Source: Megasphaera paucivorans
Lineage (GTDB): Bacteria > Bacillota > Negativicutes > Veillonellales > Megasphaeraceae
Direction of reading: 5' to 3'
Length of the DNA stretch: 41,918 nucleotides
Assembly: GCF_900103535.1 (NCBI RefSeq)
Contig: NZ_FNHQ01000023.1
Coordinates: 1-41,918 of the forward strand
In this document: one piece after another, positions 39,297-41,918 of the stretch
How the letters are laid out: every line of letters starts with the position of its first letter
Numbering within the stretch: position 1 is the first letter of the stretch
Position numbers and translations under genes: made by a program
The notes under the pieces: generated by a model
Seen by the model: the letters and a program-made list of their open reading frames with translations, nothing else
The model's database searches: none
Told to the model about the DNA's origin: nothing

Positions 39297-39340
39297 ACAG
39301 TTGTGTGACATTTATTTTACAGTTTTTCTACTCTTTAAGT
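39297..39340 (+). promoter_or_regulatory. Tandem 4 x 11-bp operator upstream of the DUF169 gene
   Basis: Four consecutive 11-mers share AC at positions 1-2 and TT at positions 5-6: ACAGTTGTGTG, ACATTTATTTT, ACAGTTTTTCT, ACTCTTTAAGT. Direct repeats with an 11-bp period are typical of DNA sites for dimers of OmpR/PhoB-family response regulators. The same array occurs at 40913-40956. The binding protein is not in this window. Confidence 0.7.
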
Positions 39341-39347
39341 AAGCGCG

Positions 39348-39376
39348 TAGACGTCGTAAAAAGTCTGAATTATAAT
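39348..39376 (+). promoter_or_regulatory. Promoter of the DUF169 gene
   Basis: A weak -35 TAGACG (39348-39353), a 17-bp spacer and a perfect TATAAT (39371-39376) begin 7 bp after the tandem operator. A poor -35 with a strong -10 fits an activator-dependent promoter. The leader would be about 190 nt. A second possible promoter (TTGTTT, 18 bp, TATAAC, 39504-39533) lies inside an inverted CTTGTT / AACAAG pair at 39503-39536. Confidence 0.65.
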
Positions 39377-39570
39377 ATGTTTAGCATAAAAAAAAAACGA
39401 ATAGGATTTCAAAAAATCGGTGTATAAAAGCAGAGAAAAAAGATGGAAGAACATAATTCATATTTACGGTATGATAACAATGCAAATCAGTTTCAGTGCG
39501 TTCTTGTTTTTATAATATCTTGAATAGTATAACAAGGAAAAGACAAAAATATAAAAGAGGGATTGATTAC

Positions 39571-40296
39571 ATGAACAGTAAATTAATCGAAGCATTGGCA
39601 TTGCGATATGAACCGGTGGCTGTTTTACTTAGCAATACAAAGCCAGAATATGCACTTCAAAGTAAAGAGGGTGTTAGAAGCTGTATCATTCCTTTGTTTA
39701 TTGCAGCAATGAAGGGAAACGTCTCTGTTTTTGAACGAAAAACTACTATGTGTCCCGGTGCCATAGCCGGATTAGGGTTTGGAACATTCCCTAATTATCC
39801 TGATGGAATTGAGTATTTTTTGACGACAGGAAAACCAGGACAGTTTGAAGGAGAGGGATATATAAAAACGCCGGAACTTGGTAAAAATTTTGTTGAATGC
39901 CTGCCAATTACAGACATATCCTATCAATATGTTATTTTTAAACCATTGTCACAAGTTAATATAGATGAAGAACAACCTGCATTATGTGTTTTCTGTGTTA
40001 CAAACGATCAGTTGTCGGCACTTATCGTAATGGCTAATTATTACAAACAGGGAAATGAAAATGTTGTGATTCCACAAAGTTCCGGCTGCCAATCTATTTT
40101 TTTGATACCGTATGCGGAATCACAGAAAAAGAATCCAAGAGCTGTGGTAGGATTGACCGATATTACGGTACGGCCTATGTTAGATCCGGATATTGTATCT
40201 TTTGCTGTTCCCTATGCCATGTTTGTTGAAATGGAACAAAATGTAAAAGGCAGCTTTCTTGAAAAAAAATTGTGGCAGAGAATGAAAGGAAGGTAG
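39571..40296 (+). CDS. DUF169 family protein
   Basis: The 241-residue cytoplasmic protein matches DUF169 in layout. The N-terminal LIEALALRYEPVAVLL starts it. Conserved cysteine segments are GVRSCIIPLF, TTMCPGAIAGLGFG and SSGCQSIF. The function is not established. The conserved cysteines suggest a cofactor or redox role, which is inference. The ATG at 39571 has AGAGGGAT about 8 nt upstream; an upstream in-frame ATG at 39496 lacks a good site. No terminator was seen after it, and the pilin-like gene follows after 199 nt. Confidence 0.85.
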   Translation: MNSKLIEALALRYEPVAVLLSNTKPEYALQSKEGVRSCIIPLFIAAMKGNVSVFERKTTMCPGAIAGLGFGTFPNYPDGIEYFLTTGKPGQFEGEGYIKTPELGKNFVECLPITDISYQYVIFKPLSQVNIDEEQPALCVFCVTNDQLSALIVMANYYKQGNENVVIPQSSGCQSIFLIPYAESQKKNPRAVVGLTDITVRPMLDPDIVSFAVPYAMFVEMEQNVKGSFLEKKLWQRMKGR

Positions 40297-40437
40297 GTAC
40301 TGTTAGAAAATGTAGGGAATAATGATATAAAAAAATCCTAAAGAAGAATTTATTTTGTTTTATAAAGTTATGAATAGTTTCTTTTTTTAGAATTTTTTGT
40401 TACAATAACATATATAGAAAAGGGACAGTACGGTGAG

Positions 40438-40472
40438 CCAATTATATACCCAATAAAAAGGTATATAATTGG
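40438..40472 (+). promoter_or_regulatory. Perfect hairpin in the leader of the pilin-like gene
   Basis: CCAATTATATACC and GGTATATAATTGG form a 13-bp stem with a 9-nt loop. It ends 23 nt before the ATG and just ahead of the strong AAAGGAGG. No T-tract follows, so it is not a terminator. It may stabilise the mRNA, act as an operator palindrome, or be an RNA-level control. The upstream 40297-40437 is AT-rich with a possible -10 (TACAAT at 40401-40406) and no gene. Confidence 0.7.
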
Positions 40473-40495
40473 TGTCAAGGAAAGGAGGAAGGGGT

Positions 40496-40696
40496 ATGTT
40501 AACGTATATGCAATATGTAATGAATCGTTATTTGGGTGAAAAAGGTCAAGGTCTTACGGAATATGCGATTATTTTGCTGCTTGTAGTTCTTATTGGGGTT
40601 ATGGTATGGTTTGGTTTTAATATCAGAGGGTCGTTATCGACAATTTACAGTAAAATTGGCACTAATATTTCTAGTATTGCAAACACTTCAACGTAA
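40496..40696 (+). CDS. Flp/type IVb-like prepilin, orphan
   Basis: The 66-residue protein has a short leader (MLTYMQYVMNRYLGEKG), a likely prepilin peptidase site after G17 (KG|QGLTEY) with the canonical Glu at +5, a hydrophobic helix (YAIILLLVVLIGVMVWFGF) and a short Ser/Thr/Ile-rich tail. This is the class of small Flp pilins assembled by Tad machinery. No Tad ATPase, peptidase or platform genes are nearby. The start has AAAGGAGGAAGGGG directly upstream, one of the strongest ribosome-binding sites in the window, consistent with an abundant subunit. Confidence 0.8.
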   Translation: MLTYMQYVMNRYLGEKGQGLTEYAIILLLVVLIGVMVWFGFNIRGSLSTIYSKIGTNISSIANTST

Positions 40697-40799
40697 AGTA
40701 TTGTCTTGATAAGAGTGTTTAACGTATATTTGCTATATACCGTTGCGTGGTCCCTTGTTTGATGAAAGGCAGATATAATATTTATTTGCTAATGACGGA

Positions 40800-40832
40800 A
40801 AAATTGCCCGTGCATTTTGTACGGGCAATTTT
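40800..40832 (+). terminator. Intrinsic terminator after the pilin-like gene
   Basis: AAAATTGCCCGT and ACGGGCAATTTT form a 12-bp stem with a 9-nt loop, ending in four T. It lies about 100 nt after the stop. The stretch 40697-40799 shows no gene. Confidence 0.8.
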
Positions 40833-40912
40833 GATATAGCTAAGTCGAAACGTGATGATAAAATTGTATGTGGAATTATATATGGATTGTAAAATTGTTA
40901 ATAATGAATATA

Positions 40913-40956
40913 ACAGTTGTGTGACACTTTTTTCACAGTTTCCTTACTCTTTGACT
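40913..40956 (+). promoter_or_regulatory. Tandem 4 x 11-bp operator upstream of the His-rich protein gene
   Basis: The four 11-mers are ACAGTTGTGTG, ACACTTTTTTC, ACAGTTTCCTT and ACTCTTTGACT. Repeats 1 and 3 and the start of repeat 4 are nearly identical to those at 39297-39340. This region is also an open frame of 61 codons (40852-41037), but the operator and promoter explain the conservation better. Confidence 0.7.
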
Positions 40957-40963
40957 CATCTGC

Positions 40964-40992
40964 TAGATTATATTCAAAATGTGTTTTATAAT
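40964..40992 (+). promoter_or_regulatory. Promoter of the His-rich protein gene
   Basis: TAGATT (40964-40969), a 17-bp spacer and TATAAT (40987-40992) begin 7 bp after the operator. This is the same geometry as at the DUF169 promoter. The leader is about 45 nt. Confidence 0.7.
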
Positions 40993-41043: not shown

Positions 41044-41505
41044 ATGAAAAAAATAGTACATGCATTAATATTAGGAACTTTTTTATTTTCGTTGAGCGGG
41101 ATAGGAATAACAAATACATATGCAATGTCGCCACAAGATGGGCCACAGTGGCAAAATAGCAATAATCATCAAGGACCTAATAATCATGATAGACATGGGC
41201 AAGAAAATCATCAACAGGGATATGATAATCATGACAGACACTGGCAGGACAATCATCAACCAGGCCCGGACCATCACGACAGACAATGGCGAGACGACCA
41301 TGATAGGCAATGGCGGGAACATTCACGGGAATGGAGTGACCATGATCGCGAATGGCGGGAACATGAAGGTGATAGACATTGGCGAGAAGTTCATGCACGC
41401 GAATGGCATGATTGGTATCAGTGGCACCATGATAATGGGGATAACGGATTTAGTGAATTTTTATTAGGTACGATATTTGGAGTTGTTTTAGCGTCAGCTC
41501 AATAA
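41044..41505 (+). CDS. Secreted His/Asp/Trp/Arg-rich repeat protein, unrecognised
   Basis: The 153-residue protein has a signal peptide (about 1-27, cleavage likely after TYA). A low-complexity centre follows (about 28-128), built from degenerate units such as NHDRHWQDNHQ, HDRQWREH and SDHDREWREHE. There are about 18 histidines and 10 tryptophans. The last 18 residues are hydrophobic (FSEFLLGTIFGVVLASAQ). The spacing of His and Asp suggests metal binding, and the hydrophobic end suggests membrane association. Both are inferences. GGGGTGAG is about 8 nt before the ATG. It has its own operator-promoter and terminator. I do not recognise a family. Confidence 0.8.
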   Translation: MKKIVHALILGTFLFSLSGIGITNTYAMSPQDGPQWQNSNNHQGPNNHDRHGQENHQQGYDNHDRHWQDNHQPGPDHHDRQWRDDHDRQWREHSREWSDHDREWREHEGDRHWREVHAREWHDWYQWHHDNGDNGFSEFLLGTIFGVVLASAQ

Positions 41506-41684: not shown

Positions 41685-41696
41685 AAAATGCTATCC

Positions 41697-41918
41697 ATGG
41701 ACACTTTAAGTTTAGCACATACAAAATGGAGATGTAAATATCATCTTGTGTTTGCACCCAAGTACCGTAGACAATTGATTTACGGGAAATTAAAAAAAGA
41801 TATTGGAAAAATTTTACGGGAATTATGTAGCCGGAAAGATGTAGAAATACTGGAAGCTAATGCGTGTAGGGATCATATACATATGTTAGTGAGTATTCCA
41901 CCTAAGTTGTCCGTATCT
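41697..41918 (+). CDS. tnpA: IS200/IS605-family transposase TnpA (N-terminal part)
   Basis: The first 74 codons are identical to the left copy. The HTKWRCKYHLVFAPKYRR motif and the HUH motif in DHIHMLVSIPPK are present. The gene runs off the window before the catalytic tyrosine. The start at 41697 is chosen by family habit (MDT start); ATG 41688, 3 nt from GGAGG, is the alternative. Confidence 0.93.
   Translation, partial: MDTLSLAHTKWRCKYHLVFAPKYRRQLIYGKLKKDIGKILRELCSRKDVEILEANACRDHIHMLVSIPPKLSVS

Follow-up and report, generated by a model that had tools for sequence, protein, structure and literature searches.

Two promoters of Megasphaera paucivorans share a conserved array of four 11-bp repeats, a candidate operator of an OmpR/PhoB-type regulator

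The window analysed here (the whole stretch of 41,918 nucleotides of Megasphaera paucivorans contig NZ_FNHQ01000023.1) contains the following genes and promoter elements between 39297 and 41505:

39297..39340, + strand: P1 operator, four 11-bp direct repeats (39297, 39308, 39319, 39330) with the sequence ACAGTTGTGTG ACATTTATTTT ACAGTTTTTCT ACTCTTTAAGT, from pattern scans of window and genome
39348..39353, + strand: P1 -35 element TAGACG, 7 bp after the P1 array
39371..39376, + strand: P1 -10 element TATAAT, 17 bp after the P1 -35
39571..40296, + strand: gene of a DUF169 (COG2043) protein, 241 aa (Pfam PF02596, E=1.4e-43)
40496..40696, + strand: gene of a pilin-like protein with a Flp/class-III signal, 66 aa (weak assignment, under the Pfam cut-offs)
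40913..40956, + strand: P2 operator, four 11-bp direct repeats (40913, 40924, 40935, 40946) with the sequence ACAGTTGTGTG ACACTTTTTTC ACAGTTTCCTT ACTCTTTGACT, from pattern scans of window and genome
40964..40969, + strand: P2 -35 element TAGATT, 7 bp after the P2 array
40987..40992, + strand: P2 -10 element TATAAT, 17 bp after the P2 -35
41044..41505, + strand: gene of a His/Trp/Asp-rich protein (hereafter His-rich protein), 153 aa, with homologues in two relatives that have the same promoter geometry

The DUF169 protein has an orthologue, 84-85% identical and behind the same promoter, in a sister genome (G016, a Megasphaera sp. MAG, 87% complete; JALCNL010000077.1 carries the identical promoter sequence). 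No relative of it was found in the PDB, and the literature gave two weak leads: a fitness effect under nitrate in Desulfovibrio (PMC4001038) and the co-occurrence table of a selenium study (PMC5322559). The N-terminus of the His-rich protein resembles a signal peptide, as read from the sequence, and no Pfam family was found for this protein. An envelope or metal-stress role had been suggested for the enclosed genes in the preliminary description of this DNA; it is not supported, evidence having been found neither for nor against it. Likewise, the pilin had been counted in the regulon, which was not borne out. No array precedes its gene (40496), so the direct members are only the DUF169 and His-rich genes, and in the sister genome the pilin does not adjoin DUF169. 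Just 3' of the His-rich gene, an IS200-type (Y1) transposase gene starts (window 41688-41918) and runs past the contig end.

P1 (39297-39376) serves the DUF169 ATG at 39571, and P2 (40913-40992) the His-rich ATG at 41044. In both, the four 11-bp repeats are followed after 7 bp by a TAGA-type -35 and, after a further 17 bp, by TATAAT. When the window was scored with the template (ACnnTTn5)x4 on both strands (about 83,700 positions), P1 and P2 alone reached 16/16 and the runner-up 13, which confirms the identical tandem-operator architecture previously described for the two promoters. Exact copies of the three-unit motif are confined to P1 and P2 in the 2.9-Mb genome and, with up to two mismatches, the remaining matches are no more numerous than those of the reversed control. 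Used as a DNA query, the P1 region retrieved P2 as its sole match. The P1 leader (39377-39570), which spans ~190 nt from the -10 to the DUF169 start, is largely kept in the sister genome except for indels; no Rfam element was found at the locus, this leader included.

Rather than being absent at orthologues, which would speak against an operator, the array was found upstream of both the DUF169 and the His-rich orthologues. The DUF169 array of G016 is identical to P1 at 35/44 positions, and the layout 7 / TAGACG / 17 / TATAAT is kept. At the His-rich promoter of the same genome, TAGACG, 17 bp and TATAAT are present with ACAGTT in register, and the array is weaker and shifted. In a second genus (G001), the His-rich promoter comprises ACAGTTGTGTG, ACAATT 22 bp further on, then TAGACA and, 17 bp later, TATACT, with spacings equal to those in the window; its clear repeats are 1 and 3 only. 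Altogether, the geometry of 7 bp, TAGAC-type -35, 17 bp and -10 is seen at five promoters from three genomes and two genera, which are not fully independent samples. The -35 is TAGAC in 4/5 of them and TAGAT in 1/5, and all five share the same mismatched base relative to TTGACA. A search for ACARTT + 23 + TAGAC + 18 + TATAAT with 0-1 mismatch returned all known loci, together with a few ordinary TTGAC-type promoters. Judged from sequence, the array is real, conserved and highly specific, and as an operator it is of a known type. On the minus strand, a second pair, ACAGTTTATTC-ACATTACC, lies ~100 bp upstream of the G001 His-rich array (L045:1085-1180).

P1 and P2 could also be copies of one segment, that is, a functionless promoter duplication, and ~46 bp of them, 1.6 kb apart, do show 87% identity. 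However, this identity ends at the array, and the -35 and -10 positions are kept while the spacers between them diverge (arrays 36/44 identical vs spacers 8/17, small margins). Moreover, orthologues in other genomes, in which the two genes are not adjacent, retain the geometry, which leaves a functionless duplication almost no likelihood. The P2 array is in fact closest to the G016 DUF169 array (38/44, spacer 6/17). Since the arrays are alike, the spacers have diverged and P2 is nearest to the G016 array, a recent copy is unlikely, as had been argued before. The comparison suggests that the array is maintained by selection rather than freshly duplicated, gene conversion being also conceivable.

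The arrays are most similar to themselves at a lag of 11 (z=7.2 over P1-P3 and 6.8 over the five promoters together), followed by a lag of 22. Direct repeats in a 10-11-bp phase, and a position adjoining a sigma-70 promoter that is kept at orthologues, are both features of OmpR/PhoB operators that the arrays show. Known PhoB/PhoP sites are tandem 11-bp direct repeats (PMC4832192, PMC4415409), and the arrays share with such operators the head-to-tail reading and the presence of several units per promoter. The 11-bp phase, which the preliminary description had linked to the OmpR/PhoB family, thus stands and favours this class, without proving it. We lean towards reading the arrays as activator operators of one OmpR/PhoB-family response regulator, which would most likely be C52, C55 or C20 (regulators are named here by their contig). 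A sensor kinase would phosphorylate this regulator, two cooperative dimers of which would then occupy the four 11-bp half-sites head-to-tail on one helix face. The bound protein would end 7 bp upstream of the weak -35 (TAGAC, not TTGACA) and would recruit sigma-70 polymerase, so that DUF169 and the His-rich secreted protein would be switched on together. Three elements of this scheme are inferred: the class of the protein, its phosphorylation and its role as an activator, not a repressor.

A more specific possibility is that the PhoPR system of contig C29 uses the arrays as PhoP boxes in a response to phosphate limitation. PhoP/PhoB boxes are 11-bp direct repeats, and the TTTACAG/TTCACAG units are superficially Pho-box-like. 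However, the phoP and pstS promoters of the family use TTTTAC(A/C) or TTTACAAAAC-TTTACAT, without ACAGTT. The pst boxes extend to within ~10 bp of the -10, whereas the arrays end 7 bp before an intact -35, and neither phoP nor pstS was found in the site-bearing G016 (87% complete). With both unit and placement differing from the organism's own boxes at pstS and phoP, assignment to the Pho regulon was rejected as improbable. The family-wide Pho box is itself readable (L024, L165-L175, L026), as TTTTACAAAAC-TTTACAT at pstS and TTTTAC...TTTTTACA at phoP. Alternatively, a LytTR regulator, e.g. that of the LytS/LytTR pair on contig C56, could read repeats 1 and 3 as ACAGTTnnn-N13-ACAGTTnnn, two half-sites spaced by two helical turns. 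In favour of this, LytS/LytTR systems often have tiny regulons, the genome encodes exactly one LytTR protein, which adjoins a 5TMR-LYT/His_kinase sensor, and the G001 promoter retains just repeats 1 and 3. LytTR sites consist of two 9-11-nt repeats with 11-13 nt between them (PMC4847170). The ACAGTT pair fits this spacing, and 9-11-bp repeats with an 11-13-bp gap, i.e. ACAGTT-like half-sites 22 bp apart, occur at 4/5 promoters, the G016 His-rich promoter being without the 22-bp pair. In the LRS operons surveyed, the distance from LytTR repeats to the -35 is most commonly ~10 bp (PMC6193735), whereas here repeat 3 ends 20 bp before the -35. Furthermore, there are four units here, not two, in an 11-bp phase; repeats 2 and 4 are kept in P1-P3, and lag 11 exceeds lag 22. 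No LytTR orthologue is shared either: the C56 regulator, disfavoured for this reason, lacks one in the site-bearing genome of the second genus, G001 (best 28%). Control by a LytTR protein is hence unlikely.

Lastly, a repressor or another regulator family might use the array as a cooperative operator, the weak -35 being incidental. This would agree with the different regulation of DUF169 homologues in Pelosinus, Propionispora and Sporomusa (L035, L036, L037 upstream of 5001), where a MarR-type gene, not the array, lies directly upstream, indicating that DUF169 control differs between lineages. Nevertheless, the whole array precedes the -35, where activators typically bind, and repeats in head-to-tail order are ill-suited to dimeric MarR-type proteins, which use palindromes; we therefore hold this explanation to be improbable. 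Two other systems bear a partial likeness to the arrays. The cre/blr tag of CreB is TTCACnnnnnnTTCAC (PMC3660660); the 11-bp phase is shared, the P2 units being ATAAC-N6-GTGAC-N6-TTCAC-N6-CTTAC, but a single one of these four is exact (TTCAC) and the conserved AGTT lies outside the tag. The PhoP sites of M. tuberculosis, TCACAGC-N4-TCACAGC, have a similar core (TTCACAG) and the strict 11-bp phase, but the organism is unrelated and the likeness is one of a short motif only.

The genome has eight clear OmpR-type regulator genes. An OmpR-type gene with the same site upstream had been anticipated; none was found among this genome's OmpR-type or LytTR genes, which leaves no autoregulatory link. For C49, C51, C52, C55 and C20, each of the other two genomes with the site contains a reciprocal best hit. 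Shared OmpR-type regulators are also present in genomes without the site, and no dedicated OmpR-type regulator co-occurring with it was found. The response regulator C43 was rejected: its output domain is SARP-like, and the second genus yielded no orthologue of it. The C51 promoter has 11-bp-spaced GATTAAA repeats, kept across several genomes, and the promoter of the C49 sensor gene has an 11-bp-spaced TTTAAW repeat. Read by eye, the promoters of the CovR-like C51 and of C49 thus appear to carry other motifs, which suggests that these two regulators read other motifs. With C49 and C51 so assigned and PhoP disfavoured, the remaining shared candidates are C52, C55 and C20. The helix sequences of C52 (RTIDTHIRNLRKKL) and C55 (RTVDTHINRLRIKL) look PhoB/CreB-like, which we take as a lead only. 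Conserved GATTAAAATTA-GATTAAA repeats precede the gene of a CovR-like response regulator (L029 upstream of 3530; orthologues L118, L125, L149) and are probably its autoregulatory site.

Beyond the known loci, the composite pattern found four unrelated one-mismatch matches in 61 genomes of the order, about the control level. Across 380 genomes of the class, the matches with 0-1 mismatch were the four known loci only; there were none with two mismatches and six with three, equal to the control. This stricter class-wide pattern overlooks the weak G016 His-rich site, so that distant or degenerate sites might escape it too. As the organism's own genome, the 61 genomes of the order and the 380 of the class yielded no other convincing site, the detectable regulon amounts to two genes, DUF169 and His-rich, in keeping with the small regulon put forward in the preliminary description. 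As a tentative extension, a so far undescribed two-component system, belonging to Megasphaera and its close relatives, may use a strictly kept promoter with four sites to control just DUF169 and the His-rich secreted protein; this would be the first link of the two families within a single response. No regulon paper for this bacterial group was found in the open-access literature searched. Under the OmpR/PhoB reading, two uncharacterised families would gain a shared, testable control, with the regulator narrowed to a few candidates in this gut/rumen group. Its signal, if found, would be the first clue to the function of DUF169 (COG2043) and of the His-rich protein. In G016, the His-rich orthologue (L106:3779-5045) adjoins genes for an encapsulin shell protein (PF04454) and a ferritin-like cargo protein, neighbours that hint at a possible connection with iron or oxidative stress.
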